A stretch of 64,000 bases of DNA from Streptomonospora litoralis (GTDB taxonomy: Bacteria > Actinomycetota > Actinomycetes > Streptosporangiales > Streptosporangiaceae), in NCBI RefSeq assembly GCF_004323735.1, contig NZ_CP036455.1, positions 4,893,101 to 4,957,100 on the forward strand, read 5' to 3'. The position numbers and the translations under genes are program-made. The notes under the pieces are model-generated. The model was not told the DNA's origin. It saw only the letters and a program-made list of their open reading frames with translations, and made no database searches. Positions 3,330 through 21,082 of the stretch are shown in pieces (positions within the stretch are counted from its first letter, which is position 1; the number at the start of each line of letters is the position of its first letter).

Positions 3330-3805
3330 TCGCTGCTCCCCTGCCCGTTTCCACCCGGCTCGGCGGCGCCGCGCACCACCAGCATGTTCACCGCGGTCAG
3401 CACGTGCTCGCCGGCGACGGTGCGCATCTCGCTTTCCAACGTCAGCCGCTCGTTGCCGCCGAGGGTGGCGATGTCGGCGATCCGGGTGACGGTCTCGACG
3501 ACGTCGCCCGCCCGCAGCGGGCGCCGGTAGGTGAAGCTCTGGTCGCCGTGGACCACCATGGAGAAGTCCAACCGCAACTCCGGGTCGACGACCGCCTGGG
3601 ACATCCCCTCCATGCCCATGATGACCGGGAAGGTCGGCGGGGCGATGACGTCGTCGTAGCCGGCGGCGCGCGCCGTGTCGGTGTCGACGTAGACGGGGTT
3701 GGGGTCACCGATCGCCTCGGCGAACTCGCGGATCTTGCCCCTGGTGACCTCGTAGGGCTGCGGGGAGCGGTACTCCCTGCCCAGGTATTCGCGGTTGATC
3801 CCCAT
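3326..3805 (-). CDS. FAS1-like/MaoC N-terminal dehydratase subunit, HadA-like
   Basis: This 159-residue hot-dog protein has the dehydratase half-domain seen in HadA/UPF0336 proteins. DPNPVYVDTDTARAAGY (34-50) takes the place of the catalytic motif, and VIAPPTFP (53-60) follows. Such subunits usually bind the acyl chain while a HadB partner supplies catalysis. ATG at 3805 was chosen over the open frame further upstream because the conserved N-terminus (MGINREYLGREY) begins there. It is the first gene after the rpmG terminator and is coupled by a 4-base overlap to the HadB-like gene. The order rpmG, hadA-like, hadB-like matches the mycobacterial locus, which supports the assignment. Confidence 0.86.
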   Translation of the reverse strand: MGINREYLGREYRSPQPYEVTRGKIREFAEAIGDPNPVYVDTDTARAAGYDDVIAPPTFPVIMGMEGMSQAVVDPELRLDFSMVVHGDQSFTYRRPLRAGDVVETVTRIADIATLGGNERLTLESEMRTVAGEHVLTAVNMLVVRGAAEPGGNGQGSSE

Positions 3806-3873
3806 CGGCTCCCTCTCACTGTGCTGTACCGCGGCCGAAGCCCCCGCCCGGCGGGACAGGTGGAACACTAATG

Positions 3874-6854: not shown

Positions 6855-7160
6855 ACCCGCTCAATTGTTGGCCTCGCCCTGCAGAGTAGGACAGGACGGG
6901 TCAAAGCAGTAGCGCTAAGCCGTGTTTAAGGAGTCTGGATCGGTCCGGCTCCCATGGGCGGCCGGGCCGTGCGGCTCGGCTCCGCTACGCCGACTTGCCC
7001 TTGGCCTTGCCCCCGGCCGGGCGGCGGGCTGAAGGATGGGGAGCAGCGGGCACCGGGGACGATGACGGGCCGGGGCCCGCAGTCGAGGGAGCGGGCACCG
7101 CCGGTGGCGGTGCGTGGGGAGGGGCGGCGAGGGCGCCGCGGGGTGGCGCCCTCGCCCAAC

Positions 7161-7200
7161 GGGTCGGGTGCCCGCCGGTGGCGCGCCCGACGAGGCGGCG
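7161..7200 (+). repeat. dispersed GC-rich repeat, copy A
   Basis: The core GGGTCGGGTGCCCGCCGGTG continues GCGCGCCCGACGAGGCGGCG. Copies B, C and D share GGGTNNNCGCCGGTGGCG. Copies A and B face each other. Downstream at 7321-7340 lies GACGATCGTGGCCGTATGAC, which is matched with two changes after copy C. Confidence 0.55.
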
Positions 7201-8014
7201 ACGGCAGCAATGGGACCGGGGGCGCAGGTGTCGGTTTCGGTGGCCTGTGGTGGCCCGCCCGGCGAGGGGCGGTGCGGGGCCGGAAAGGGGACGTGTGTCC
7301 GTTATGTCGCAGAGCGGCGGGACGATCGTGGCCGTATGACGAATTCCAGTCGGCGTTTTTGGGATTTTCGCCACGATCCCCGCGGCCGCCCCCGGAACGT
7401 CGGTCATAGCGGGCGCGGGGGCGGGGAGGCGCCGCCGCCGTGTTCCGGCCGGGCCCGCGCGGGCAGGCAGCCGCGCGGCGGGGCGCGGTCGCGGGCGCCC
7501 GCACGGCCCGAAGGTGCGCCGGATCGGGGGGCGGGGGCGACGACACGTCGCTCGTGGCGCCCCGGCGTCGCCTCCGGTTGCCCCACCCCCCGATGAGGCC
7601 GACTTTTGGGGGCCTATGCCCGTTTTGCGCGCGGCCTCGGCGGGCGCGCTGGCCACGAGACGCACGAAAAGTTGACCCCCGGGGGCTGTTTTCGCGCCAT
7701 TCAGCGCACCTCGTGCGCCGTCGCCGCCGCGGCGCGGGCGCGGGCCCACTGGAGACTCGGGCATTGGTGGACAAAACACCCCATGTTGTTTCGTATCGCG
7801 GAATGATCGTGCGAGGACGATGCCTCGGGGTGGTACCGAGGCGGATGCCGCCGCACTTACGTGCATCTCGTGGCCCCGATCCGGCTGCATGACCGCCGCC
7901 GACCGCCCCGCGTCGGGCCCGCGCCGACAATCGAGCGGCGATCCCCGGGCTCGACCACCCACTGCCAGGGCCGGTGACCACCGCCCCGACCACCCCAGGC
8001 CCGGCCTTACCGGC

Positions 8015-8060
8015 GTCGCCGCCCCCGTCGGCCGCCGCCACCGGCGAGCACCCGACCCGA
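8015..8060 (-). repeat. dispersed GC-rich repeat, copy B
   Basis: The minus strand reads GTCGGGTCGGGTGCTCGCCG then GTGGCGGCGGCCGACGGGG. This is nearly the same as copies A and C, in the orientation opposite to A. Confidence 0.55.
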
Positions 8061-8409
8061 CGACCGCAGGCCCGGCCATCCGCCGCCGTCGCCGCCGCTT
8101 TTCAGTCAAGACCACCCGCCACCCGGCAGACCAACAAGGCCGCCCAGCAGACCGGCGTTCTTAAACACGGCTTACCCGTCGAATCGGGTGGGGGCGGTTC
8201 CGCGGCTCCAAGCGCCGCGGGGCGGGTGCCGCCGGCCGGCGGAGGCCCTTGCGGTGCCGGTGCGCAGAGCTGTGCATGCAAGCGGCGAGCGGGGCGGTTG
8301 GGAGCGGGATGCGGTGTTCCGCTCCGTTCGGCCCGGAAAGGACGGGTGACGCCTCGCGTCGGCGACTATGCGGGAGACGGAGACGCTGTCCGGCCTGCGC
8401 AGCGGAGTC

Positions 8410-9624
8410 TCACCGCGTGCGCAGCGCGTCCACCATCTTGATCCGGCCGCCGGTACGCAAGATGGCGTTGGAGTAGATCCGGCCGCCCAGTGCAACCAGC
8501 CCCGCCAGCAGCAGCAGCGCTAGAACGATGGAGAGCGCGGTCTGCCAGACCGGGACCTCGCCGAGCGCGGCGCGCAGCGGCATCATCACCGGGGAGAAGG
8601 GCGGGATCACCGAAAGCGCCTCTGCGGCTCCCAGTTCGAGCGGGTTCTTCGTGACGAGGTAGACACCGACGACGAACGGCACCCCCAGCAGCGCCAGCAC
8701 CGGCTGCACGGCGGGTTGGACGTCCTCCTGGCGGGAGACCAGCGCTCCGGAGGCTGCGAGCAGCGTCGCGTAGAGAAAGTAGCCGAGCACGAACCAGATC
8801 AGCGCGGACGCGGCGGCGCTCGTAGCGGTCGCAGGGACGGAGTCGAGCCGGCCCGTCGCCGCCAGTGCTCCCAGACTTGCCAGGACGATGACCGCGAACT
8901 GCAGCATGCCCACGGCCCCGATACCGATGATCTTGCCGAACATCAGGTGCCATGGGCGGATGGTCGACAGCAGCAGCTCGACGATGCGGCTCGCCTTCTC
9001 CTCGACGACCCCCTGGGCGACGTAAATGCCGAAGACGACGAGGAAGACGTACAGCAACCCCACGGCCACGAGGCTGAGGAAGAGGCGGTCGCCGACGCCG
9101 GACCCCCCCGGTTCCAGGTCGCGCACGTCCGCGGTGGCCGACATCGCGGCCCGCACGCCGCTCGTGTCGGCCTCGACCTCCGCCAGCGCGGCCTGCGTCC
9201 GCTCCGCTCGCACGACGCGGTCCAGGAGCGCCTTCAGGCCGGGGTCGATCCCTCCGGCCACAACGACTTCCAGTCCGTCCGGGGTCGTGGTCAGCAGGGC
9301 GTCGATGTCGCCGTCGCGTACCCGGTCCGCCGCGAGTGCGGGGTCGGGGCTCTCACGCAGATCGAAGTCGGCCTGTGCTGCGCCCGTTGCCGAGCGGACC
9401 GCGTCGAGGTAGCCGCGGGCTTCGGGAGCGGCGGCGACCACGTAGCGTTCCTGCTGGCCCTGGAGCTGGAAGAAGAACGCGCCACCGCCGATCAGCAGGA
9501 GCAGCACAAGGGTGCCGATCACGTAGGACTTCGTCTTCAGCCGGGTGGTGATCTCGCGCTCGGCGACCAGGAATACCGCGGCCCAGTTGCCCGGTCGGCC
9601 GCCGACCGGCGACGCGGCGCTCAT
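8410..9624 (-). CDS. ABC-2 type transporter permease, NatB-like
   Basis: This 404-residue membrane protein has one N-terminal helix (about residues 33-55), a roughly 130-residue extracytoplasmic domain, then five to six helices in the C-terminal half. This is the layout of NatB/YhaP-type ABC-2 permeases. Its ATG overlaps the stop of the ATPase gene by 4 bases, so the two form one exporter. NatAB in Bacillus extrudes Na+, but many relatives export lipids, peptides or toxic compounds, and the substrate here is unknown. The protein ends DALRTR just past a last amphipathic stretch. No truncation is apparent. Confidence 0.88.
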   Translation of the reverse strand: MSAASPVGGRPGNWAAVFLVAEREITTRLKTKSYVIGTLVLLLLIGGGAFFFQLQGQQERYVVAAAPEARGYLDAVRSATGAAQADFDLRESPDPALAADRVRDGDIDALLTTTPDGLEVVVAGGIDPGLKALLDRVVRAERTQAALAEVEADTSGVRAAMSATADVRDLEPGGSGVGDRLFLSLVAVGLLYVFLVVFGIYVAQGVVEEKASRIVELLLSTIRPWHLMFGKIIGIGAVGMLQFAVIVLASLGALAATGRLDSVPATATSAAASALIWFVLGYFLYATLLAASGALVSRQEDVQPAVQPVLALLGVPFVVGVYLVTKNPLELGAAEALSVIPPFSPVMMPLRAALGEVPVWQTALSIVLALLLLAGLVALGGRIYSNAILRTGGRIKMVDALRTR

Positions 9625-10532
9625 TCGCTCTCCTCCCCGTTCACGGCGGTGCGGAACAACTCGGCAAGGGTCGGACGCAGCGGGACGAACTCACCGACCG
9701 GCCCACTGCGCATCGCCGCCGCGAGGACCGCCTGCTCATCGGCGCCAGGTGCGAGCTCGACACGGACACGGTCACCGGAGGCGCCCAGAACGGACACTCC
9801 GTCCAGCTCGTCGGCCCATCCGGTGGGGCCGCCGGCGATCTCGATCTCGAAGCGCCGACGAGAACCGTCGCGCAGTTCGCCGACCGGCCCGCAAGCCACC
9901 ATGCTTCCGGCACGAACGATCCCGACCCGGTCGCACAACCGCTCGACCAGGTCGAGCTGGTGGCTGGAGAAGATGACGGGTACGCCGGCGGCGGCCTTCT
10001 TCCGCAGCACCTCGCTCATGACGTCCACGGCCATGGGGTCGAGTCCGGAGAACGGCTCGTCCAGGACGAGGACCTCCGGGTCGTGGATGAGGGCGGCGGC
10101 GAGCTGAACCTTCTGCTGGTTGCCCAGGCTGAGGTCGTCGAGCTCGTCGCGGCGGCGCTCGGTGAGCCCGAACCGCTCCAGCCACTCGTCGGCCGCGGCG
10201 CCCGCGGCCCGTTTGCGAATGCCGTGCAGCCGCGCCAGGTACATCAGCTGGTCGCGCACGCCCATCTTGGGGTACAGCCCCCGCTCCTCCGGCATGTAGC
10301 CGATGTCGCGGCGGGTTTCGAGACCGATGGGCTCACCGCGCCAACGGACCTCGCCGGAGTCCGCGGCGAGCACACCGAGGATGATCCGCATCGTGGTCGT
10401 CTTGCCCGCGCCGTTGCCGCCGACGAAGCCGAAGATGCCGCCCTCGCCGACGTCGAAGGTCATCTCGCGCAGGGCGTGCACGTCGCCGTAGCGCTTGCTG
10501 ACCCGGTCGATCTGGAGGTCCTTCCCACCCAC
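9621..10532 (-). CDS. ABC transporter ATP-binding protein, NatA-like
   Basis: This product of about 303 residues has Walker A GGNGAGKTT, a Q-loop region MPEERGLYPKM, signature LSLGNQQKVQLAAAL and Walker B LVLDEPFSGLDP, then a C-terminal domain of about 90 residues typical of NatA/DrrA exporters. LSLGNQQ departs from the usual LSGGQ, as often seen in this subfamily. GTG at 10532 is preferred over GTG at 10541 because AAAGG then sits about 9 bases upstream. It powers the permease encoded next. A palindrome upstream (10580-10600) could be an operator. Confidence 0.9.
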   Translation of the reverse strand: MGGKDLQIDRVSKRYGDVHALREMTFDVGEGGIFGFVGGNGAGKTTTMRIILGVLAADSGEVRWRGEPIGLETRRDIGYMPEERGLYPKMGVRDQLMYLARLHGIRKRAAGAAADEWLERFGLTERRRDELDDLSLGNQQKVQLAAALIHDPEVLVLDEPFSGLDPMAVDVMSEVLRKKAAAGVPVIFSSHQLDLVERLCDRVGIVRAGSMVACGPVGELRDGSRRRFEIEIAGGPTGWADELDGVSVLGASGDRVRVELAPGADEQAVLAAAMRSGPVGEFVPLRPTLAELFRTAVNGEESE

Positions 10533-10579
10533 AACCCTCACCCTTTGGATCTACGTGCCTTCGCGATGGACAGTACAGC

Positions 10580-10600
10580 GTTGTGTTGTGAAAACACAAC
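10580..10600. promoter_or_regulatory. palindrome upstream of the NatAB operon, possible operator
   Basis: GTTGTGTT and AACACAAC are perfect 8-bp arms with a 5-base spacer. A nested TTGTG-AAAA-CACAA palindrome overlaps it. It lies about 50 bases before the NatA start in an AT-rich patch of otherwise very GC-rich DNA, as expected for a repressor site over a promoter. No cognate regulator is identified. The Xre protein further upstream is one candidate. Confidence 0.5.
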
Positions 10601-11044
10601 ATTAAAGCAGGCAGACCATTCCATTCTTCAGTCGGATGCGCACGCGGACATGGCGACATGCCCGGGACGCGCCAGGCGGGCCCTACCGGATCGATGCGCT
10701 CAGCGCGCGGGCTCCTCCGCCGTCGACCAGCGGGCCCGGGGCGGCCGCGTAGTGCCCACGCCCCGTGCCGGTCGGCGCAGGTGGCGCTGCGCAGAGCCGA
10801 GCCGCACGGGAGTGCGGCGCGCGGCGGCTGTGCGCCGGGGGGACTCCCCGGCTCAACAGCGGAGGCTGCGCCGCCGAGGGCGCAGCGCGACCCGCGCCGT
10901 CCGGGCCGGGCGAGAGCGAACGACGGGGCCGCGCGCCATACGCGACGGAACGGGATCCTCCGATCGCGCGGGACACGCACCGCAGGACTCCGTGAAGTGG
11001 ACTCCGTCAATACCTGCGGGGCCCTGCGGCACTCCGCCGACGGC
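10601..11044. other. intergenic stretch without a recognised gene
   Basis: These 444 GC-rich bases lie between the NatAB promoter region and the end of the Xre-linked membrane gene. Open frames here are Arg/Pro-rich shadows without ribosome sites. A short GGGGGACTCCCC self-complementary patch occurs near 10840. I see nothing else. Confidence 0.4.
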
Positions 11045-11563
11045 TCATGCCGCGTCGAGGTCGTCCGGCTCCTCTTCGGGCGCCGTCCAGGCGAAGGCGA
11101 CCGTCGGCGCGGCGGCCGCCAGGCCGACGGCGACCAGCAGCAGCTGGGCCCCCCGCACGACGTCGCCGGGATCGACGTGCGAGACCACCACCAGGTAGAT
11201 CGCGACGACCGCGCCGCTGATCAGCGCGGTGTAGTAGCCCAGCGCGAGGTACCGGGCACGGAAACCGAGCTCCCGTTCGTCCAGGCGGTCGGCGGGGCCC
11301 TCCGCGATGCCCCGCGTCATCAGCCGCAACGCCACCGAGGGCACCAGCCAGACGGCGTACATGACCCACCAGGCGTCGCCGATACCGGCCTGCTCGGACA
11401 ACAGGGCACTCAGCACAAGCGCCGCGAACACCAGCGCCCAAAACACGGCGACCGCGCGCCGCGCGCTGCGCCCCCGCCATGCGGGTCGCTCCTGCTCCAT
11501 CCCCACTCCAGACGATCGGTCCCGCTCGGCACCCGCGTGCCCGCCCGGATGCCGCGACATCAC
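11045..11563 (-). CDS. membrane protein of an Xre-linked two-gene cassette
   Basis: The product of about 172 residues has a charged 35-residue start and then four hydrophobic segments (roughly 37-55, 66-82, 108-125 and 138-157). A DERELGFRARYLAL segment follows the second helix and resembles the DERE motif of small DUF2178-type membrane proteins. The start overlaps the stop of the upstream Xre-type regulator (GTGATG context), so the pair is translationally coupled. Such regulator/membrane pairs are common in bacteria, and in some cases the membrane protein holds the regulator. The function is unknown and the family assignment tentative. Confidence 0.7.
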   Translation of the reverse strand: MMSRHPGGHAGAERDRSSGVGMEQERPAWRGRSARRAVAVFWALVFAALVLSALLSEQAGIGDAWWVMYAVWLVPSVALRLMTRGIAEGPADRLDERELGFRARYLALGYYTALISGAVVAIYLVVVSHVDPGDVVRGAQLLLVAVGLAAAAPTVAFAWTAPEEEPDDLDAA

Positions 11564-11835
11564 CGCCTGTCCTCCCGGTCCCCGTACACCGATGTGGACA
11601 GCGGCGCGAACGGCTTCCTGCTGAAGACGGCTTCGACGGGGAGCCCGAACACGTCGCAGATGCGAAAGGCCAGGTCGAGACTCGGGTAATGGTCGCCGCG
11701 CTCCAGCGCCCCGATGGTTTGCGGATTGACGTCGACCATCGTCGCGAGCTCCGCCCGGCTGATACCGCGCTCGGCACGCAGTACACGCAACCGGTTGTAG
11801 ATAGGCAGCTTCTCGCCGTTACGCACCGGGCTCAT
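11560..11835 (-). CDS. Xre-family HTH transcriptional regulator (YozG-like)
   Basis: This 91-residue protein is almost only a helix-turn-helix domain. LRVLRAERGISRAELA (residues 17-32) and VNPQTIGALERGDHYPSL (36-53) form the Xre/Cro fold, and CDVFGLPVEAVFS follows. This is the compact YozG type usually found beside a small membrane protein, as here. ATG at 11835 is taken as the start because the conserved domain begins right after it. The 77-base AT-rich spacer upstream holds TGAAC-AA-GTTCA, a possible autoregulatory site at about 11865-11877. The target genes are unknown. Confidence 0.88.
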   Translation of the reverse strand: MSPVRNGEKLPIYNRLRVLRAERGISRAELATMVDVNPQTIGALERGDHYPSLDLAFRICDVFGLPVEAVFSRKPFAPLSTSVYGDREDRR

Positions 11836-11912: not shown

Positions 11913-14900
11913 TCACACCCCCACGAGCCTGCGCCTGCTGCCGTCCCAGGTGAAGTGCAGGGTCGCGATGCCGGGCACGGCGGGATCGCGCAGGCACTCG
12001 TAGATGTGCAGACTCGGCACACTGGCGAAGCAGCCCCACACGCGCTCCGAAGTGAGCACGAAGTCCAGGTCGAGCTCGACAAGCAGCCCCAGCAGGCGGC
12101 CGTGGGTCGGCTCGTCGACCTTGGCGAACGCGTCGTCGAGCAGGATCAGGCGCGGCGCGGCCGGCGCCTGGGCGGCCAGAGAGCCGAACTGGGCAGCCGC
12201 GGCGGCGAACAGCACCAGGTAGGCGACCACGCGCTGCTCGCCCTGGCTGAGCGCGGTGCGGTGGCTGAGTCGGCGCTCGCGGTCGGGGTGTGCCGCGTCG
12301 GTCACATAGACGGTGAAGGCGAACCAGGAGCGGTAGTCCAGCGCGGCCCGCAGCTGTGCTCCGCCGGTGGCGGTCGGGTCCAGACGGCGGATGGCTTCGA
12401 TGCACCGGCGCAGCGCGTCGCGCAACCGGGTGCTCTCGACGCGGGTGCGCTGCTCCGGGGGCCGGGCGAGCAGCGGCACGACCGCCTGGATGTCCTCATC
12501 GGCGTCGGGGGCCAGCTGCCAGTCCAGACGCACGCCAAGGCCCTGGGAGGTGGTGATGTCGCCGAGCACGTCGTTCATCGTGGAGATGAGCGCGCGGGCC
12601 TCCTCGATCTGCTGCCGCAGGTGGCCGGCCAGCTCGCCGAGCAGGTGGCGCTCGAACGCCTCCTCCTCGCGCAGCAGAGCCGCCTCCTCGGCGGCGGCCA
12701 CGGCCTCGTCCAGGTGGCCGGCGTAGGCGGTGATGTCGTGGCTGCCGTCGTCGCCGTGCACGGTGAGCCGCTTGACGCCGGCGGGTTCGGTCAGCTCCGT
12801 CCAGGCACCGATGGCGTCGCCGGCGGAGAGCAGGCTGTGCAGCTCCTCGCGGCGGCGCAGGATGCCGCTGTCGTCCAGCTCGCTCTCGGCGGGCGCGTCG
12901 AGGCCGCTTTCCAGCGCCGACAGCAATGCGTCCAGCGCGGCGACGCGCTCGGCGAGGAGGTCGTGGTCGGCCTCCTGCGGATCGGCGGAATCGGCCGCGT
13001 CGGTGCCCTCTTCGGGACTCGTGTCTTCACCGGTTGCCCGGGTTCCGGCGGGAGCGGCGGACGGGGCGAGGTGGGCGGCGAGCCGCTCCAGTCCGGCGGC
13101 GGCCAGCAGCGCCGCGTCGGCGCCGCCGCCGTCGTCGTCACGGGTGAGCATGGCGCGCAGCACGTCGCCGGCGCCCAGGGCGCGGCGGGCCTGCTCGGCG
13201 CGTTCGAGTACGGCGGTGTCCAGGCGGGTCTCCGCGGCGACACGATCGTCGCGGGCGCGCTGGGCCTCGCGCTCGACTTCGGGCAGCCGCGCGGCGGCCT
13301 CGTCCATCCGCTCGCGCACCTGGTCGACGGCCGTGGAGATCTGCTCGGGCGCCGCGGTGCGGGCCCGGTCGGTCAGCTCGATCTCGCGCCGCACCGTGAT
13401 CATGTCGCTGATGGCGGCGGTGCGGGAGTCCTCGGCGAGGATGCGCCCGGAGCGGGCGTCCTCCCAGGCCGCGGTGTGTCCGCGGTAGTCCTCCAGCAGG
13501 ACGGCGAGGCTCTCCAGGTCGCGGTGGCCGGCGGCCAGCTCGGCGCGCAGCCGCTGCAGGGCGGTCCGGGTGGCGGCGAGGTCGTCGGCACCGGTGGGCA
13601 GGCCGTGCCGCTCGGCCGGCTCGGACAGCGCGGAGCGGCGGTCGAGCGTGGTCTCGCGGGCCCGGGCCAGCTCGTCGCGGGCCGCGTTGTGCGCCCGCTG
13701 AGTCTGGGCCAGCCAGGCGCGCGCGTTGTCCAAAGCGGACCAGGCGGCCAGGACGCCGGACGGGTCGGGCAGGGCCCGGTCGGTCTCGACGAGCGAGGCG
13801 TGCTGGCGTTCGATGTCGCCGCGGCGCTCCCCGGCCTCGGCGAGCAGCGCCTCGGCGATCGCTATGCGCCGGTCGATGTTGGCCAGGTGGCGGTCGCTGG
13901 TCTCCGCGCGGGCCTCCTTGCCGATGTACTCGGCTCCGGACTTGCTGTGCGCGCCCGAGGCGGCGCCCAGCCGCCAGCGGCCGTCCAGCGAGACCGCGCT
14001 GGCCACGGGTGGAGGGCTGTCGCGGCGGTGGCGGGGCTCGGGCTCCTCTTCTCCGGGGGGCGGAAGCAGCCCGATGGAGTCCAGCAGGGCCGACACCGCG
14101 CCGGCGGTGATGCCTCCGGGCAGGTCGTCGGCCGGTGCGAGGACTTCGCGCAGGCTGCGTCCCTTGACCGGGCGGCCGGGCGCGAGCAGCAGGTCGCGGG
14201 TCATGCCGTCGGTGAGCGAGCCGTCGGCGGCGATCCAGCCGGACAGGACGCCGCAGGCCTCAAGGGCGGCCTCCAGCCCGGCTTCTTCGTCGGACGACAG
14301 GCCGGAGGCGAAGTCCACGGCGAGGTAGAAGGGTGCGCCGGCGGCCTCGTCGCGCCCGGCCGTGGCCCACACCGGGCGCTCGGGCGCGATGTGGCCGGAG
14401 GCGGCGCCGCGGCGCTCGGAGAGCTCGTCCAATTCGGTGGACAGCTCCCGCTCCTCGCCCACGGCGGTGTCGCGGCGGGTGCGCAGCTCCCGCAGCAGCG
14501 GGTCGACGACGCCGTGCGCGTGGCGGGCGACCCGTTCGGGCACGTCGGCGTCGAGGACGCGCAGGCGGTCCTCCAGCGGCAGCTCGACCAGGGACTCCAG
14601 TTCGGCCAGCTGCGCGCCGAGATCGGCGTCCGGGGCGTTCTCGCGCAATCGGGCGCACCACCCGCGCACGCGCTCGGTGTAGTCGGCGCTGGCCGAGCGG
14701 ACGGCGTCGATGGCGGTCTGCTCCCGCTCGCGGGCGCGCTCTAGTGCGGCGTCGGCGGCCTCGGCCTCGCCGGTCAGGGCCGCCTGGCGCTGTTCGGCGT
14801 CCTGCCGCTCGCCGGCGCGGTCGAGGAGGTCGGCGACGGCTTCCTCGCGTTCGGCGGCGGCCGCGTCGGCGGAGGTGAACAGGTCGTGCAGCTCCGCGAG

Positions 14901-16757
14901 GCGGTTGCGCAGGTCGGCGACGTCGACGCCGGATACGGGATCGCGCTCCACGGCCTGCTCCAGGCCCTCCAGGTTCACCCGTGTGACGCTCTCCCGCGGG
15001 GCGAGGGTGGTCGGGACGGGGTGGGGCACCTGGCCCAGGCCCGCGGGATCGGCTCCGGCGGCGCGGGCGGTGGCGCACAGCTGCTCGTGCAGGCCGCCCA
15101 GGCTGTCGAGGGAGCGTTCGATCGCGGCGATGTCGGCGCCGATGCGGTGTTTGGCCTGCTCCTCGTTGCTGATCGCGTAGCCCGCGGCCCCCGAGGCGGC
15201 TTCGGCGGCGCGGATGTAGGCGGAGACGGCGGCGTCGCGCGCCTGCTGCTCGAAGTCGGAAGCCGCGTCGGGGGCGTCGCCGCTCTTGGAGAGGGTCGCG
15301 GTGTCGGAGGCCGCGGTGTCGCGGGTGCGGCGCAACCGGTCGCGCTCCTCCTGGACGGCGCTCTCGGCGGTAACCAGTTCCTCCAGCTCGCCGGTGAGCC
15401 GGTCGACCTCGGCGTCGCGGCGGCGGTGGGCGTCCACCTGCTCGCGGACCTGCCCGGCCTGGATGCGCAGGGTCCGGTGCAGGTACCCGCGGTAGTCGGC
15501 GAGGAAGTCGCCGACCTGTTCGCGCGCGGCTCGCAGGGCCTCCAGCCGGGCGCGGGCCTGCTCCAGGTCGGTGATGTTGCGCGCCATCTCGTCCAGGACC
15601 GTCTCGTCCATGGGCGGCAGCGCCTCGGCGAGCACGGAGACGAGTTCGCCGGCCTCCAGGCGCTCGCCGATGGTGGGGCGGCGCAATCGGTACAGCAGGT
15701 GGATGAGGTTGCGGTAGCGCACCGGATCGTCGATGCCGAACAGTTCGCGCATGACCCGCGCCCGGTAGTTGACCGGCGTGTCATAGCAGTTCTGCGGGCC
15801 GACCTCGGTGCGCAGGCGGTCGACGGGCATGGGGCGGCCGTCGGAGACCAGGCGCAGGTCGGTGCCCAACTCGCGTTCGGTGATGAAGAACACGCTGCGG
15901 GCGTCGGATCCGGGTGAGGCGGTGACGGCGGCGCCCAGGGTGATGCGTCGGGGGCCGGGCGTCTCGGCCTCCGCGGTGCCCTGCGCTGTGGCGGCGGCGG
16001 TTTCCGCGCGGGTGAACTCCACCCACAGGTAGCCGAGTGTGGCGGTGGGGCCGTCGTCCTCGGCGGCGCCGTCCGGAGCGGACGCGGTCTCGGCGGCCGG
16101 GTCGGCAAGGGGGTCGTCGAGGGCCGCGGCGCCGTCACCGCCGGGGCCCTCGTGCTCCTGCGCACCGGCGCCCGCGGAAGGCGTCCGCCCCCCGGTGGAA
16201 CCGCCGCCGCGGCCCTCCAGCAACAGCCACCGCAGGCTGGTGCGGCTGCTGCCGGTCGTGTCGAGCCGACGGGCGTCGCCGTCCAGCAGAAACGGCAGCA
16301 GCATCTCCAGTGCCTTGGACTTGCCGGCGCCGTTGCGGCCGCGCAGCAGCAGGCGGCCGTCGGCGAAGTCGAACACGTGGTCGTCGTAGTGCCAGACGTT
16401 CTGGATGCCGGCCCGGTTGAGGCGGTAGCGGCCCGGCGACGCCGGTGCGCCGCCCTCGCGGGCATCGGCACCGGGGTCGTCGGCCTGGGAGTCGGCGGCC
16501 GCGCCGCCGGAGGAGGCGGCGGCCGACGTGTTCGCGGGCGGCTCGACGGGACCGGTGTCGCCGAGCAGGTCGCCGGCGGGCACGCCGCCCTCTCGGGAGG
16601 TGTGCCCCTGCTCACCGGCGTGGGTCGCGGCGCCCTCCTGGGACGCTGCTGCGCCGGCCGGTGGGGACTGCTGGGCGCCGATGGCGCCGCCCGGCTGCTC
16701 GGTGCCGTCGCCGGCCGGCGACGGCTCCGTCCGCCCGTGGGCGTTGGCGACGGTCAT
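11913..16757 (-). CDS. jetC: JetC-like SMC ATPase (TIGR02680 family) of a Wadjet-type locus
   Basis: This 1614-residue SMC-like ATPase has Walker A GRNGAGKSK at 140-148 after the N-terminal strand NRAGIQNVWHYDDHVFDF. Long Glu/Arg/Ala coiled-coil arms follow. The C-terminal head has LSQGEQRVVAYL near 1493 and Walker B LILLDDAFAKVD at about 1537-1548. This is the TIGR02680 type found with TIGR02677/02678/02679 proteins in Wadjet loci. ATG 16757 was chosen because GGAGG lies 7 bases upstream. The first 110 residues are a Pro/Gly/Ala-rich linker, unusual for the family. In Wadjet the SMC motor extrudes plasmid DNA for cleavage by JetD. No JetD is present here. Confidence 0.9.
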   Translation of the reverse strand: MTVANAHGRTEPSPAGDGTEQPGGAIGAQQSPPAGAAASQEGAATHAGEQGHTSREGGVPAGDLLGDTGPVEPPANTSAAASSGGAAADSQADDPGADAREGGAPASPGRYRLNRAGIQNVWHYDDHVFDFADGRLLLRGRNGAGKSKALEMLLPFLLDGDARRLDTTGSSRTSLRWLLLEGRGGGSTGGRTPSAGAGAQEHEGPGGDGAAALDDPLADPAAETASAPDGAAEDDGPTATLGYLWVEFTRAETAAATAQGTAEAETPGPRRITLGAAVTASPGSDARSVFFITERELGTDLRLVSDGRPMPVDRLRTEVGPQNCYDTPVNYRARVMRELFGIDDPVRYRNLIHLLYRLRRPTIGERLEAGELVSVLAEALPPMDETVLDEMARNITDLEQARARLEALRAAREQVGDFLADYRGYLHRTLRIQAGQVREQVDAHRRRDAEVDRLTGELEELVTAESAVQEERDRLRRTRDTAASDTATLSKSGDAPDAASDFEQQARDAAVSAYIRAAEAASGAAGYAISNEEQAKHRIGADIAAIERSLDSLGGLHEQLCATARAAGADPAGLGQVPHPVPTTLAPRESVTRVNLEGLEQAVERDPVSGVDVADLRNRLAELHDLFTSADAAAAEREEAVADLLDRAGERQDAEQRQAALTGEAEAADAALERAREREQTAIDAVRSASADYTERVRGWCARLRENAPDADLGAQLAELESLVELPLEDRLRVLDADVPERVARHAHGVVDPLLRELRTRRDTAVGEERELSTELDELSERRGAASGHIAPERPVWATAGRDEAAGAPFYLAVDFASGLSSDEEAGLEAALEACGVLSGWIAADGSLTDGMTRDLLLAPGRPVKGRSLREVLAPADDLPGGITAGAVSALLDSIGLLPPPGEEEPEPRHRRDSPPPVASAVSLDGRWRLGAASGAHSKSGAEYIGKEARAETSDRHLANIDRRIAIAEALLAEAGERRGDIERQHASLVETDRALPDPSGVLAAWSALDNARAWLAQTQRAHNAARDELARARETTLDRRSALSEPAERHGLPTGADDLAATRTALQRLRAELAAGHRDLESLAVLLEDYRGHTAAWEDARSGRILAEDSRTAAISDMITVRREIELTDRARTAAPEQISTAVDQVRERMDEAAARLPEVEREAQRARDDRVAAETRLDTAVLERAEQARRALGAGDVLRAMLTRDDDGGGADAALLAAAGLERLAAHLAPSAAPAGTRATGEDTSPEEGTDAADSADPQEADHDLLAERVAALDALLSALESGLDAPAESELDDSGILRRREELHSLLSAGDAIGAWTELTEPAGVKRLTVHGDDGSHDITAYAGHLDEAVAAAEEAALLREEEAFERHLLGELAGHLRQQIEEARALISTMNDVLGDITTSQGLGVRLDWQLAPDADEDIQAVVPLLARPPEQRTRVESTRLRDALRRCIEAIRRLDPTATGGAQLRAALDYRSWFAFTVYVTDAAHPDRERRLSHRTALSQGEQRVVAYLVLFAAAAAQFGSLAAQAPAAPRLILLDDAFAKVDEPTHGRLLGLLVELDLDFVLTSERVWGCFASVPSLHIYECLRDPAVPGIATLHFTWDGSRRRLVGV

Positions 16758-16890
16758 CGCCCGTCCTCCGCTCTGTACCGTCTCGCGCCGCGCCTCCGGA
16801 TTCTCCGGTGACGGGCGATCCTGCCATTCTTCCGGATGGTGCGAGTGCGCCGGGTGTGCTCCCGCCTCGGTCAAGTGGGGCACCCGGTCG

Positions 16891-18165
16891 TCACAGGGGA
16901 CTCGCCGGTTCTTCCTCCGCGCCCGGCGAGGGGCCGTGGCCGGTGGGCGCCGATCCGGCGGGCGGGGTCCCGCCGCCGGGGGCGTCGGCGGGACGGCCGC
17001 CGTAGCGGGCGGCCGCGGCCCGCAGCCGCCACCCTGCGCGGTCGCCGCTCGCCGGATCGGGGTGGTGCAGCATCCCGGTCTCGTGCAGCAGTCGCAGGGC
17101 CCGGGCCGTGAGCGTATCGGGGTCGGGCTCGTGGCGCAGCGCCGACCGGGCCCCGTGGCCGGGGCGGGCGTCGGCGGCGTGCACCCGGGCGAGCTCGGCG
17201 GTCAGCACATCCTCGGGCACCTCCACCCCGCTCTGCGGCACCGCGCCCGGACGCAGCCGGGCCACCAGGTTCTCCAGCAGCAGCAGGGCGGCCTGACCGA
17301 CGGGGTCGGCGCTGGGGAACGCGGTGACCCCCTCGGCGGCGGCGTCGCCGGGCATGATCAGCGCGATGCCCTCGGCGCGGATCTCGGCGTCGCAGCCGAG
17401 CAGCTCGCCGAGTTCGGCCACGGCCCGCCACTGGTGGGTGGCCAGCCGCCTGCGCTGGCGCTCGGAGAGATCGGCGCGGTAGAGCACCGCGGTCTCGGCC
17501 AGTGTGCGGCGCAGCGCGACCTCTCCGGTGTCCTCGCTCGCGGGGTCGGTGGTGTCGTGGCCGTCGACGAAGGCGCGGGCGTCGGCGGTCGCGTGCGGCG
17601 GGTGGGCCACCACGCGGCGGACCACGGCGTGGTGCACATTCAGCCGCACCTGCTGTGCGGGGTCGTCGGCGTAGTCGGTCAGGCCGCCTTCCCGCTCTTC
17701 GGCGACGGCTCCCCACGCGCAGAGCTTGCGCAGCGCGACGCTGAAGGCGCGGCGCTCCCCCGATCGCTCGCGGGGGTCGAGCGCGAGGCCCGCCTCGTCG
17801 GCGGCCGCTGCGACGTCGCCGGCCAGCCGGGACAGCGTGATGGGCGAGGGCGCCTCCACCAGCACCGCGAGGCACAGCGCGAGATAGGTATAGGCGCGGG
17901 GGGTGAAGTACGCGCCGCTGGGGCGGCTCAGGGGGCGGGCGGCGGCCCGCACCAGGCCGGTCTTGGCCAGCCGGGCGTGATCGGCGGCGACGGTGAGATC
18001 GTAGCCGAGAACACGGCGGAAGCGCTGGATGAGCCAGTCGGAGTGCGCGCGGATGAGCGCGAAATCCTCGGGATGGGTGCGCTCGGTGACGATCGGGTCG
18101 GCCAGCAGCCGCCGGGCGGCGGCCTGGCGCTCGCCCGTGAGGGCGATGTCCTCCGTGGACGTCAC
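16891..18165 (-). CDS. jetB: JetB-like protein (DUF2398/TIGR02678)
   Basis: This 424-residue protein matches the DUF2398 family. RRLLADPIVTERTHPEDF, then IRAHSDWLIQRFRRVLGY and a DHARLAKTG stretch make the conserved N-terminal winged-helix part. AYTYLALCLAVL and RKLCAWGAV follow. In Wadjet complexes JetB is a KITE-type subunit that binds the kleisin JetA beside the SMC. GTG 18165 is preferred because GGAGGAGG lies just upstream; the frame remains open to 18264 but without a ribosome site. It lies between the truncated jetA and jetC on the same strand, with gaps of about 125 and 133 bases. Canonical loci are tighter. Confidence 0.85.
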   Translation of the reverse strand: MTSTEDIALTGERQAAARRLLADPIVTERTHPEDFALIRAHSDWLIQRFRRVLGYDLTVAADHARLAKTGLVRAAARPLSRPSGAYFTPRAYTYLALCLAVLVEAPSPITLSRLAGDVAAAADEAGLALDPRERSGERRAFSVALRKLCAWGAVAEEREGGLTDYADDPAQQVRLNVHHAVVRRVVAHPPHATADARAFVDGHDTTDPASEDTGEVALRRTLAETAVLYRADLSERQRRRLATHQWRAVAELGELLGCDAEIRAEGIALIMPGDAAAEGVTAFPSADPVGQAALLLLENLVARLRPGAVPQSGVEVPEDVLTAELARVHAADARPGHGARSALRHEPDPDTLTARALRLLHETGMLHHPDPASGDRAGWRLRAAAARYGGRPADAPGGGTPPAGSAPTGHGPSPGAEEEPASPL

Positions 18166-18289
18166 GGTCGTCGCCACCTCCTCCGTCGCTGTGGGTCGGT
18201 CGGTCGGGGACGCCTCCCACCCTCGCGGTGCGGGGACGGGCGTGCGGTCGGGCGGCCCGCGCACCGTCGGTGCCGGGGCCGGGCCGGTG

Positions 18290-19054
18290 TCAGGCTTCGC
18301 GGGCCAACGGCAGGGCGATGCCGGACGGCGGTGTGGTGCGGTTGTCGGGATCGGCTTCGGAGGCGGTCTGCGGATCCCCGGCCACGGAGAAGGTGGTCAC
18401 CTGCAGCCGCAGGCCGTCGAGGCTCAGGTCGCCGCCGGAGCCGCGCAGCGTGATGGACGCCTCGGGGTCGTGGCGGACGTTCAGGCGGACGCCGAGTTCG
18501 AGGTCGCCGACCGAGACGGGGCGGCGGGTGGCGTCGCCGGAGCCCAGCGCGGCGGTGAGCAGTTCCATCAGGACCTCCAGGGCGGGATCGGAGAGCCGGA
18601 TGCGGGAGTCGCCGCCGGTCGCCTCGGCCAGGACGCGGCGCAACTCCTGAGCGGCTGTGCGGCGCCAATGAGCGGAGGACTCGGCGGCGTCGCGCAGCCG
18701 GGAGCGCTGCGCGGTGTGGTCGCGCACGGGGTCCGCGGGCAGCGCGCTCGACAACCGCGCGGCGGCGACGCTGGCCAGCGGCGCGTCCCACCAGCTGACC
18801 GTTGCGCCGGCGGGCTCGTCGCAGGGGCCGCCGAGGTGGGTGGCGGCTTGCGTCCCGAAGGCGGCGGTGCAGATCTCGTCGGCCGATCGGGCATCGGCGT
18901 TCTCGAACCAGGCGGCCAAGCGCAGCAGGGCGGCGCGGCCGTGCCGGGGTACCGGCCCGTCGCCGGAAGCGCGTCCGTCGGGCAGCCGTTCCCGAGGGCC
19001 GGCGGCACTCGCACTCGGGCCCACCGTCCGCACCTGTTCCGCTGAGACACCCAC
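18290..19054 (-). CDS. N-terminally truncated JetA-like kleisin (C-terminal half of DUF2397/TIGR02677)
   Basis: These 254 residues match the C-terminal half of DUF2397. Landmarks are LLRLAAWFENADARSADEI, AAFGTQAATHLGG, SWWDAPLASV, an Arg-rich RDHTAQRSRLRD stretch, a RIRLSDPALEVLMELLTAAL segment and a final beta-rich domain. Family proteins are usually near 500 residues. Here the roughly 240-residue N-terminal part, with the winged-helix domain that should grip the SMC neck, is absent. An in-frame TGA lies two codons before the GTG at 19054, and only 166 bases separate it from the next gene, so the missing half is not nearby. No ribosome site is seen. It is probably a decaying remnant, though a short functional form cannot be excluded. 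Confidence 0.72.
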   Translation of the reverse strand: MGVSAEQVRTVGPSASAAGPRERLPDGRASGDGPVPRHGRAALLRLAAWFENADARSADEICTAAFGTQAATHLGGPCDEPAGATVSWWDAPLASVAAARLSSALPADPVRDHTAQRSRLRDAAESSAHWRRTAAQELRRVLAEATGGDSRIRLSDPALEVLMELLTAALGSGDATRRPVSVGDLELGVRLNVRHDPEASITLRGSGGDLSLDGLRLQVTTFSVAGDPQTASEADPDNRTTPPSGIALPLAREA

Positions 19055-19220
19055 AACTCAGCAGACTAAAGACCCCTGGCCACCGTCGCGGCCGGAACGG
19101 GGGTGCGAAAGGCCGGAATCGGAGCCTGTCCAAGCTGATGACCTGCGATTATCGCGCATCGGTAATTCTTGGCGCGCAGTCGCCGCCGAGGCGGCCGCGC
19201 CGGGCCGCCCGAAGGCGCGA

Positions 19221-19757
19221 TCACCACGCCGAGGGCAGGGTGAGCCGGCCCGAGTCGACGTCGCGCAGCCTTCCCCGCATCTCCTCGGGGATGTCGCCCA
19301 TGCCCGCGAAGGAGTAGTCGGTGTAGAAGGCGGTGCCGTCGATCGTCTCGGTTCCGCTCAGCTCGACACTGACGGCGAAGGGCTCGTCCTGGCAGTCGGG
19401 CAGGCACCAGGTGCCCTGCACCTGGCCGGTACCCAGCGCCGGTCCGCCGCCCCAGCCGGCCCACTCCAGCCCGGTGAAGGTCGTACTGGGAGAGGCGACC
19501 AGGTTCTTCGGACGCTGGTCGGCCTCGCCCTGCTCGTTGCCGTGGGTGTTGAAGACGAAGATCGTCCCGGGTTCCACGGTCGGATCGGCGCTGCGGGGAT
19601 CCATGCCCGCGGTGGCCGATGGAGGGGGCTCCACCTCCGGAGCGCCGCCGCGGCCACCCGTGTCCTCCGGATTCTGCGCGCAGCCGCCGAGCAGCGCGAG
19701 GGCGCACAGCGCCGCCGACGCTCGAGCTGCGGCGGAGGGCGGGCAGGTCGCTGGCAT
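19221..19757 (-). CDS. secreted lipoprotein, function unknown
   Basis: This 178-residue protein has a signal peptide ending in the lipobox LLGGC, so the mature N-terminal Cys would be lipid-modified and held on the outer face of the membrane. The mature part begins with a Pro/Glu/Gly linker and then a roughly 120-residue domain with FVFNTHGNEQ and a WCLPDC cysteine pair. I do not recognise a family. ATG 19757 has AGGAG 7 bases upstream. It is on the same strand as the Jet genes, 166 bases before the truncated jetA, with no clear functional link. Confidence 0.75.
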   Translation of the reverse strand: MPATCPPSAAARASAALCALALLGGCAQNPEDTGGRGGAPEVEPPPSATAGMDPRSADPTVEPGTIFVFNTHGNEQGEADQRPKNLVASPSTTFTGLEWAGWGGGPALGTGQVQGTWCLPDCQDEPFAVSVELSGTETIDGTAFYTDYSFAGMGDIPEEMRGRLRDVDSGRLTLPSAW

Positions 19758-19964
19758 GGCGCTCTCCTGGCTTCTCCCGGGCTGCGCGCGGGCGCGCGTG
19801 CAGAGATCTCCTACCCGCACCGGCGGCATTTGGGCACCGGCCCCCGATACGGGTGTCCCCCGGCACCCGCGAGGGGTCCGGGGGACACGTGCCGCGGAGG
19901 GCGCCGATCGCGGTGGCGGCGCCGCCGTGGGGCCTGCGGCCTCAGGCGGCGCCGCGCCGCGCGA

Positions 19965-20255
19965 TCAGTACCCTTGGCCGTTGCGGTCCGGGATCGCGTC
20001 GTAGGCGTCCTGGGAGTCCAGGTTCACCACCGACGGACCGTTGACGCAGTCGCCCGTCGTCTGGGGCGACAGCACCGGGACGGTCGCCCCGAGCACGGCC
20101 GCGTTGGCGTTGCAGACGGAGATCGGCACGACCTGCAGATTCTGGTTGAACTGCTGGTCACCGCCGTGGGTCTGCGCCTGCGCGGGACCGGCCAACAGCA
20201 GCGCCCCGAGGGCGGCGCCGGCAACCGTCCCGGCTGCGACGAACTTGCGCAGCAT
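19965..20255 (-). CDS. small secreted two-cysteine peptide 4 of tandem array, chaplin-like
   Basis: This 96-residue protein has a signal peptide ending AQAQ near residue 28. The mature part starts GGDQQFNQNLQVVPISVCNA and continues through LSPQTTGDCVNGP. The two cysteines (48 and 70) are 22 residues apart, as in the first array member. Unlike its neighbours it has a roughly 20-residue extra tail ending DRNGQGY. It is the last of four tandem genes on this strand. Size, export, Asn/Gln/Val-rich composition and two cysteines recall chaplins, the surface-active amyloid peptides of aerial hyphae, but the chaplin core sequence is not clearly present. Confidence 0.75.
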   Translation of the reverse strand: MLRKFVAAGTVAGAALGALLLAGPAQAQTHGGDQQFNQNLQVVPISVCNANAAVLGATVPVLSPQTTGDCVNGPSVVNLDSQDAYDAIPDRNGQGY

Positions 20256-20268
20256 GCCTGACCAGCCC

Positions 20269-20517
20269 CTAGTCCTGGACGTTGGCGCTGACCGGGCCGT
20301 TGGTGCAGTCGCCGGTGGTCTGCGGCGACAGGATCGGCGCCGTGACACCGATGACCGCGGCCGCGTTGGTGTTGCACAGCTGGGCCGCGACGCCCTGCAG
20401 GTTCTGGTTGTACTGCTGGTCGCCCCCGTAGGAGTCCGCGCTCGCGGGCGAGGCGGCGACGACGGCCCCGAGGGCCGCGCCGGCGATCAGACCGGTGATT
20501 CCGAGCTTGCGCAGCAT
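20269..20517 (-). CDS. small secreted two-cysteine peptide 3 of tandem array, chaplin-like
   Basis: This 82-residue precursor has a signal peptide ending at about ASPASA. The mature peptide has GGDQQYNQNLQGVAAQLCN and SPQTTGDCTNGP, with cysteines at 48 and 71. It is nearly identical to the next upstream copy, so the inner pair is a recent duplication. It lies 11 bases before the stop-side neighbour's start region and is probably co-transcribed. A structural surface or disulfide-linked role is inferred only from size, secretion and the cysteine pair. Confidence 0.78.
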   Translation of the reverse strand: MLRKLGITGLIAGAALGAVVAASPASADSYGGDQQYNQNLQGVAAQLCNTNAAAVIGVTAPILSPQTTGDCTNGPVSANVQD

Positions 20518-20529
20518 GTGTCTACTCTC

Positions 20530-20778
20530 CTAGTCCTGGACGTTCGCGCCGATGGGGCCGTTGGTGCAGTCGCCGGTGGTCTGCGGCGACAGAACCGGAA
20601 CGGTCACGCCGATCGCGGCGGCGACGTTGGCGTTGCAGGACTGTGCGGCGACACCCTGCAGGTTCTGGTTGTACTGCTGGTCGCCCCCGTAGGCGCCCGC
20701 GTTGGCGGGAGAGGCGGCGACAACGGCCCCGAGGGCCGCGCCGGCGATCACGCCGGCGATTCCCAGCTTGCGCAGCAT
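20530..20778 (-). CDS. small secreted two-cysteine peptide 2 of tandem array, chaplin-like
   Basis: This 82-residue precursor begins with MLRKLGIAGVIAGAAL, has a hydrophobic core and an ASPANA cleavage site. The mature peptide shares GGDQQYNQNLQGVAAQ, IGVT.P.LSPQTTGDCTNGP and the terminal ANVQD with copy 3. Cysteines at 48 and 71 are 23 apart, one more than in the outer copies. It is 58 bases from copy 1, with a small spacer, and 12 bases before copy 3. The family's function is unknown. Confidence 0.78.
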   Translation of the reverse strand: MLRKLGIAGVIAGAALGAVVAASPANAGAYGGDQQYNQNLQGVAAQSCNANVAAAIGVTVPVLSPQTTGDCTNGPIGANVQD

Positions 20779-20836
20779 GGGGATTTCCCTTCTGACTGTG
20801 AAACGTGTGGAAAGTGGATGAAGCTGATTGGCGCCG

Positions 20837-21082
20837 TCAGCCGTCGACGTTGGCGCCGCGAGGTCCGTTGGTGCAGTCGCCGGTGGTCTGCGGCGACAGG
20901 ATCGGCACGGTGGCGCCGAGCACCGAGGCGTTGGTGTTGCACAGCTGGATCGGCACGACCTGCAGGTTCTGGTTGAACTGCTGGTCGCCGCCGTAGGGAC
21001 CGGCGTGAGCGGGTCCAGCCATAAGCACAGCGCCCATCGCGGCGCCGGCGATCAGACCGGCAGCGGTCAACTTCTTCTTCAC
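20837..21082 (-). CDS. small secreted two-cysteine peptide 1 of tandem array, chaplin-like
   Basis: This 81-residue precursor starts at GTG 21082, with GGGGGAA just upstream. It has a Lys-rich n-region, a hydrophobic core and a GPAHA cleavage site. The mature peptide has GGDQQFNQNLQVVPIQLCN, VLGATVPILSPQTTGDC and TNGPRGANVDG, with cysteines at 48 and 70. It leads the four-gene array, and an AT-richer leader of over 100 bases precedes it, which suggests a strong promoter. A hyphal-surface or matrix role is possible. Confidence 0.78.
   Translation of the reverse strand: MKKKLTAAGLIAGAAMGAVLMAGPAHAGPYGGDQQFNQNLQVVPIQLCNTNASVLGATVPILSPQTTGDCTNGPRGANVDG

Follow-up and report, generated by a model that had tools for sequence, protein, structure and literature searches.

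A Wadjet type II-like SMC locus with a short kleisin and no nuclease gene is conserved at a fixed chromosomal site in Nocardiopsidaceae

RESULTS

A shortened, nuclease-free Wadjet type II-like locus in Streptomonospora litoralis

Here, we describe a Wadjet type II-like locus of Streptomonospora litoralis that lies in a 64,000-nucleotide stretch of contig NZ_CP036455.1 (NCBI RefSeq assembly GCF_004323735.1, positions 4,893,101 to 4,957,100; referred to as the window). The locus encodes a structural maintenance of chromosomes (SMC) ATPase (JetC), its KITE subunit (JetB), and a 254-aa C-terminal part of the kleisin JetA (sJetA), and it has no gene for the nuclease JetD (Table 1). Because this shortened, nuclease-free form recurs at one chromosomal position across many genera of a single actinobacterial group, we take it to be a kept variant, probably with a new function, rather than a wreck. 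On balance, the evidence leans toward a Wadjet type II-like SMC complex that has been domesticated without a nuclease, is encoded at one fixed position of the chromosome in many Nocardiopsidaceae, and would serve as a non-cleaving DNA-binding machine in the upkeep of the chromosome or of DNA ends, possibly in concert with X, a Rad50/RecF/SMC-like ATPase encoded downstream.

A preliminary description of the locus, made from the DNA letters alone, had called jetC and jetB intact, and profile searches agree with this. JetC matched TIGR02680 (783.5 bits) and PADLOC JetC2 (1083.6 bits across aa 148-1654) near full length and carries a Walker A motif (RGRNGAGKS), a signature motif (LSQGEQ), and a Walker B motif (RLILLDDAFAKVD). 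JetB matched DUF2398 along the entire profile (255 bits) as well as PADLOC JetB2 (294.4 bits), and scored 91.2 bits against TIGR02678, below that model's own cut-off of 124.65. The ATG at 16757 is the likelier start of jetC over the longer frame because the peptide MTVANAHGRTE recurs in the loci L050, L051, and L053. Two of the components that define Wadjet type II, i.e., a TIGR02680/JetC2-type JetC with three ATPase motifs and a DUF2398-type JetB, are present at the locus, and the other two, a complete JetA and an in-operon JetD, are absent from it.

sJetA covers only positions 300-481 of the 483 positions of DUF2397 and only positions 315-505 of the 512 positions of PADLOC JetA2, corresponding to the C-terminal ~38% of the kleisin. 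The initial view that jetA had been cut to its C-terminal half was correct about the end that remains and overstated its extent. Using tblastn with the genome's own JetD as the query, we obtained no match in an 18-kb slice around the locus, in agreement with the preliminary description; the same query detected the JetD genes of other Wadjet loci (32-35% identity).

The short form is conserved across genera

We searched 297 genomes from 68 genera of the window's family with sJetA. In the genome searches reported here, only the best first-look candidates per genome (e.g., five) were scored, at E ≤ 0.001, and absences hold at that sensitivity. Matches were obtained in 92 of the 297 genomes. Short-JetA genomes were defined as those with a match at E ≤ 1e-26, minus two with a full-length JetA (G026 and G060), which gave 70 genomes spread over 17 of the 68 genera; the other 20 genomes had weaker matches, nearly all in long frames. 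All six genomes of the window's genus have the short form, with open frames of 254-256 codons, and the proteins of the five relatives are 70-76% identical to sJetA of the window.

The loci of 40 relatives were fetched, among which 38 have the short JetA and two (L086 and L087) a full-length JetA. Together with the window, this gave 39 short loci; the short-JetA genomes outside these loci were assigned by identity and by co-occurrence with X. Matches to both jetB and jetC were present in all 39. A scan of named genomes returned 52 loci, in 26 of which the sJetA DNA is identical to that of one of the 38 and in 26 of which it is distinct, so that the two sets comprise up to 65 distinct loci. Fifty of the 52 carry a genus or family name of the Nocardiopsidaceae (older name, Nocardiopsaceae), and the family assignment of these names was checked; the genera are Nocardiopsis, Streptomonospora, Thermobifida (Thermobifida fusca), Murinocardiopsis, Marinitenerispora, Allosalinactinospora, Actinorugispora, and Marinactinospora, and one locus is assigned to the family only. 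The remaining two are an Actinomycetes metagenome-assembled genome and one labeled Glycomyces fuscus. Of the named loci, 51 gave a match to JetB, 49 to JetC, and 44 to X, and in the eight lacking X, the contig stops within or shortly past the jet genes. By tblastn, JetD was found in none of the 39 short loci and none of the 52 named loci; as a control, the query was positive in L087, L096, L099, and L100.

In a class-wide search of 394 genomes, high-scoring short JetA proteins (at least 278.9 bits) were confined to the same family. The best match outside it scored 130.9 bits and lies in a 586-codon frame, and a weaker extra-family match at 76 bits, in G575, falls in a frame of 253 codons. A plasmid collection of 72,556 records gave no sJetA match.

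A model of the N-terminal half of JetA matched none of the 39 short loci in any of the six frames and all 15 full-length loci (8 of them in its training set), and a model of the C-terminal part matched 54 of 54 loci. The rows aligned numbered 34 for the 39 short loci, 34 for the 52 named loci, and 24 for X, for which 35 rows were usable; for the short loci, the sJetA alignment has 38 invariant columns. An assembly error hiding a full-length JetA had been raised as a way out, and we rejected it because the truncation and the stop codon preceding it recur in independent assemblies. We also considered, and rejected, a longer JetA made from an upstream start, as the long open frames upstream of sJetA in some relatives gave no match to the JetA N-terminal half. 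Separately, the sJetA frame extends 92-298 residues past the matched part in L062-L066, L068, L082-L084, L088, and L089; in the one inspected, that of L068, this extension is proline-rich.

In G060, a full-length JetA is encoded at the same site, JetD is absent from the locus, X is inverted, and one DUF2399 match lies elsewhere in the genome. In a JetC tree, which was built without the nine locus-2 rows, the short-JetA loci sampled (14 rows) group together as one clade (support, 92/99), and the placement of G060 relative to the JetD-bearing group is unsure (89/85, with a long outgroup branch). Because of this unsure placement, we infer from synteny only that JetD was lost first and the N-terminal half of JetA thereafter. 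A second JetD-less, Wadjet II-like set with a full-length JetA (L090-L098) was also observed in the group: eight of its nine copies gave no JetD match, the ninth (L096, in G045) did, and in the four copies with listed genes (L090, L092, L094, and L096), a superoxide-dismutase-like gene lies downstream. The nuclease may have been lost more than once in this group.

A conserved element precedes the short jetA

As noted in the preliminary description, an in-frame stop lies just upstream of jetA: a TGA at 19060-19058 is followed by one codon, GTT, and then by the GTG start of the short jetA. This stop and start, together with a −10-like TAGTCT, are contained in a 23-bp element, TCTTTAGTCTGCTGAGTTGTGGG (window 19072-19050). 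Allowing three mismatches and requiring the JetA frame, we found the element in 32 short loci (of 39) and 38 named loci (of 52). At up to five mismatches, the numbers rose to 37 and 47, respectively, i.e., to 84 of the 91 short rows together. The other seven rows have 6-8 mismatches, a count that is indecisive by itself given that the best chance matches over whole control loci have 7-10; in most of these seven rows, TCTCTAGTCTGCTGA nevertheless stands where it would be expected. Eleven of the 91 rows have the element in a different frame from the JetA match, six showing an ATG there and five a GTG shifted by one base. It is not present in the full-length-JetA loci L086 and L087.

In the 5.8-Mb genome, the element has a single match within three mismatches (control, 0). 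We rejected a reading of the element as the mark of a regulon on account of this single match. The element is probably a dedicated, leaderless promoter for the short jetA.

Reading frames and ATPase motifs are intact and the locus is under purifying selection

Of the 39 short loci, 38 have the Walker A motif (RGRNG[AT]GKS), LSQGEQ, and RLILLDDAFAKVD together in one long JetC frame, as do 46 of the 52 named loci; the misses are Nocardiopsis eucommiae HDS5 (L066, the same as L136) and five contigs that end early. A seemingly degenerate Walker A motif in L057, L058, L061, and L120 was rejected because it reads GRNGTGKS, an intact variant.

The ratio of nonsynonymous to synonymous substitution rates (dN/dS), calculated by the Nei-Gojobori method, was about 0.15-0.52 within the genus; as dS is underestimated in this GC-biased genome, the yardstick for these values is the neighboring genes and not 1. 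For the closest pair (G128/G080), we obtained 0.21 for sJetA, 0.15 for JetB, 0.28 for JetC, and 0.18 for X; murB and yajQ gave 0.21 and 0.18, respectively. Comparing the window with G107, we obtained 0.39, 0.34, 0.23, and 0.19 in the same order, with 0.27 for murB. Thus, the locus is under purifying selection. Recent decay, one of the two explanations offered at first, is contradicted by this selection, by the intact frames, and by the many genera that share the truncation, the gene order, and the start element.

Protein X co-occurs with the short form

In all 38 relatives' short loci, jetC is followed by X and then by hadA, hadB, and murB, with X starting 47-1064 bases (median, 212) past the jetC match. 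The same four genes are present in the window, where they are separated from jetC by ~5 kb encoding an Xre-type regulator, a small membrane protein, and an ABC transporter. This stretch does not lie between jetC and X in the five genus relatives (L050-L054). The Xre-type neighbor pointed out earlier is therefore real in the window but is not the usual neighbor, which in relatives is X. Orthologs of X (at least 59% identity) occur in 71 of the 297 family genomes, namely, the 70 short-JetA genomes and G060.

Among 24 aligned X orthologs, the Walker A motif, LSQGE, the Walker B aspartates, and C389 and C392 are invariant, and the CxxC motif predicts a zinc hook. A fold search with X returned the Rad50 chain of Mre11-Rad50-Nbs1 at rank 1, JetABC at rank 20, and Lamassu LmuACB at rank 48, all with low TM-scores, and X gave weak matches to the PADLOC models mad3 and LmuB. 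Neither Pfam nor the fold search recognized a nuclease domain in X, and no Mre11/SbcD was recognized among its neighbors in the gene calls, no profile search for Mre11 having been made.

Distant homologs of X (31-40% identity) occur elsewhere. Among the 14 regions fetched, 12 have the X gene in their gene calls (L101, L103-L106, and L108-L114). A gene for a 114-142-aa protein adjoins X in 6 of these 12 regions, and HsdM-like genes, as recognized by eye from the N-terminal sequence, are located close by in at least 4. These regions could represent an undescribed defense module. The small gene was not seen after X in the loci with listed gene calls.

On the other side of the locus, the small predicted lipoprotein gene upstream of sJetA gave no Pfam match; it was matched by tblastn in 46 of the 52 named loci. 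Adjoining the locus, a row of genes at 19965-21082 encodes small secreted proteins of 81-127 aa that are chaplin-like by eye.

TABLE 1 Features of the short-kleisin locus and its flanks (window coordinates)
Feature	Coordinates	Strand	Basis or remark
Short jetA (sJetA), 254 aa, C-terminal part of Wadjet II kleisin	18290-19054	−	DUF2397, PADLOC JetA2
jetB, KITE subunit (DUF2398), complete	16891-18264	−	DUF2398, PADLOC JetB2
jetC, SMC ATPase, complete	11913-16757, frame open to 16883	−	TIGR02680, PADLOC JetC2
Promoter-like start element TCTTTAGTCTGCTGAGTTGTGGG	19050-19072	−	−10-like TAGTCT, in-frame TGA, GTG start
X, 752-aa Rad50/RecF/SMC-like ATPase, CxxC at C389 and C392	4596-6854	−	
Xre-type regulator, small membrane protein, ABC transporter ATPase and permease	6950-11800 (ends approximate)	−	Open reading frames
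hadA	3326-3868	−	Conserved flank
hadB	2901-3329	−	Conserved flank
murB	1918-2772 (match)	−	Conserved flank
Small predicted lipoprotein, upstream flank	19221-19829	−	Often conserved

Other Wadjet loci in the genomes

The S. litoralis genome (5.81 Mb, two contigs) contains two further Wadjet loci. A complete jetABCD lies at C1:5,567,919-5,576,374, 0.66 Mb from the locus in the window, and holds the only DUF2399 match of the genome. An intact jetA and jetD in trans, the finding that the preliminary description had asked to look for, thus exist in this genome. The cell is thus not without a Wadjet nuclease, which is however encoded in another operon, and may have kept the plasmid cleavage that had been supposed lost. 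The second locus (C1:5.152-5.167 Mb; L007) has a full-length jetA and jetB. Its jetC is cut to the N-terminal ~230 profile positions and then continues in other sequence, making this locus the decaying Wadjet of the genome.

Across the 70 short-JetA genomes, 34 gave no DUF2399 match at E ≤ 0.001, and in 10 of those 34, including the single-contig assembly G023, the short JetA is the sole DUF2397 match. For these reasons, supply in trans fails as a general explanation. Among the 31 of the 36 other genomes for which DUF2399 positions were listed, the DUF2399 gene lies within 12 kb of a full-length jetA in 24 and therefore belongs to another operon, and the remaining 7 have no jetA pair among the matches listed.

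Structural prediction for sJetA

The AlphaFold model of sJetA is confident for residues ~110-221, which form a helix and a winged-helix-like alpha/beta unit, moderate for helices at 39-68, and poor for the remainder. The best match to a solved structure was the C-terminal part (319-489 of 500) of the Wadjet II JetA of Neobacillus vireti (9qe0), with an E value of 0.004 by sequence profile and of 1.2e-4 by fold, the latter at a low TM-score of 0.31.

DISCUSSION

We propose that the short kleisin would still cap the JetC head and hold JetB. Lacking the N-terminal half, it would be unable to attach to the neck of JetC, complete the ring, or join two motors into a dimer of dimers, as deduced from the roles of the kleisin N terminus in MukF and type I JetABC. 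sJetABC could still hydrolyze ATP and bind DNA and would then represent an ATP-dependent machine that binds or bridges DNA without being able to cut plasmids; the paired motors needed to trigger JetD should not form, and the locus offers no JetD to trigger. Its role could lie in chromosome or DNA-end upkeep, possibly jointly with X. A bolder version, which we hold tentatively and consider somewhat improbable as a whole, is that sJetABC represents the first half-kleisin SMC complex to be met in nature, that selection has fixed it in a bacterial family, and that it forms one two-ATPase machine with the Rad50-like zinc-hook protein X, for chromosome upkeep or for the sensing of foreign DNA.

Several observations weigh against a domesticated complex of this kind. 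The sJetA model has a mean predicted local distance difference test (pLDDT) score of 67.4, with 102 of the 254 residues below 50, and binding of JetB by sJetA is proposed by analogy. Between the window and its five genus relatives, dN/dS of sJetA is 0.39-0.52 (0.52 against G030), compared to 0.26-0.31 for murB, and sJetA is the fastest-evolving gene in these comparisons apart from that for the lipoprotein. In N. eucommiae HDS5 (L066/L136; completeness, 84), jetC and X are each spread over several frames, through either sequencing error or decay; in G288, X is in two pieces. Finally, the link between X and sJetABC consists of adjacency and co-inheritance in one clade, for which shared descent could suffice, and X points the other way in G060.

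Among the alternatives, the one that we take most seriously, while still regarding it as unlikely, is that the locus remains a defense system in which foreign DNA is recognized by sJetABC and X has taken the place of JetD as its partner or effector, with a mode of action different from JetD-type cleavage. The constant position of X after jetC in the 38 relatives' short loci, the restriction of its orthologs to the 70 short-JetA genomes and G060, the defense-like genes around its distant homologs (the small gene in 6 of 12 regions and HsdM-like genes in at least 4), and its weak matches to mad3 and LmuB are all consistent with this. However, the syntenic, core-like inheritance of the locus differs from that of most defense genes, sJetA is absent from the 72,556 plasmid records, X has no nuclease domain recognized by Pfam or fold, and loci with listed gene calls do not show, behind X, the small gene that accompanies its distant homologs. 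A split kleisin, in which a separate, diverged gene supplies the neck-binding N-terminal half so that a full ring still forms, is considerably less plausible. A lone, diverged N-terminal half could escape profile searches that score the best few candidates per genome; against this, the short JetA is the single DUF2397 match in the 10 genomes that also lack a DUF2399 match, including the single-contig G023, and the N-terminal half model was negative in six frames of the 39 short loci, the rest of the genomes being searched with the Pfam profile only.

Two further alternatives appear highly improbable. The locus might borrow JetD or a full-length JetA that a complete Wadjet at another site provides in trans, and the S. 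litoralis genome would allow this, as it has both the complete jetABCD (C1:5.568-5.576 Mb) and a second full-length jetA-jetB pair. The 34 of 70 locus-bearing genomes with no DUF2399 match, 10 of which have no other DUF2397 match, speak against borrowing, as does the location of 24 of 31 listed DUF2399 genes within 12 kb of a full-length jetA, i.e., in another operon. Plain or recent decay of a Wadjet operon would explain that two of the four parts are missing or shortened, and it would agree with the copy in the same genome whose jetC is cut to its first ~230 profile positions and with the one relative whose jetC is in several frames. This explanation, the least probable of all, is opposed by what the genera have in common: the truncation, the start element, unbroken frames, a full set of ATPase motifs, and purifying selection.

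A kleisin linking the neck of one motor to the head of the other is generally considered a requirement for SMC complexes. If the domesticated-complex interpretation is correct, a conserved SMC complex with the C-terminal end of the kleisin only would be a natural test of the need for ring closure and motor pairing, and an immune complex that has turned into a fixed chromosomal one would bear on the interconversion of defense and chromosome SMC complexes. Tools that seek complete systems could mistake the locus for a broken Wadjet. Because Thermobifida fusca and Nocardiopsis species carry the locus, these ideas are testable in known organisms. Within the open-license literature, we recognized no half-kleisin or JetD-less Wadjet II in this family.

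The closest known system is Wadjet type II (JetABCD; N. vireti JetABC, PDB 9qe0/9qe1), with which the locus shares the JetC family (9e-55 to the 9qe0 JetC), the JetB family DUF2398, the C-terminal part of JetA, and the gene order A-B-C. It differs in lacking JetD and the N-terminal half of JetA, in being at a fixed chromosomal site, and in being followed by X. X resembles Rad50/SbcC and LmuB in having a head ATPase split by a coiled coil and a CxxC motif where the zinc hook would sit; by contrast, it has only ~750 aa and is linked to JetABC, and no Mre11 or Lmu partner was recognized beside it in the gene calls. MukBEF has the same subunit classes as the locus. PMC5812716 reports that the C-terminal domain of MukF stimulates the MukB ATPase independently of the N-terminal domain and that the N-terminal part provides neck binding and dimerization. 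Unlike sJetA, MukF is full length and dimerizes via the N-terminal domain that sJetA is missing. In type I JetABC, similarly, two motors are linked by dimerization of the kleisin N terminus, as stated in PMC10586767.

With MksBEF, the locus shares a kleisin-KITE-SMC set without a TOPRIM nuclease, and a non-nuclease SMC role like that of MksBEF, suggested in the preliminary description, fits the data better than decay does. The analogy is partial: the kleisin of MksBEF is complete, whereas that of the locus is also missing its N-terminal half, and the set here is that of Wadjet type II. MksBEF of Pseudomonas is thought to have derived from Wadjet by loss of JetD, according to PMC10586767. Loss of JetD thus has a precedent; the combination of nuclease loss with loss of the kleisin N-terminal half and fixation at a syntenic core site was not apparent in our searches of the open-license literature.

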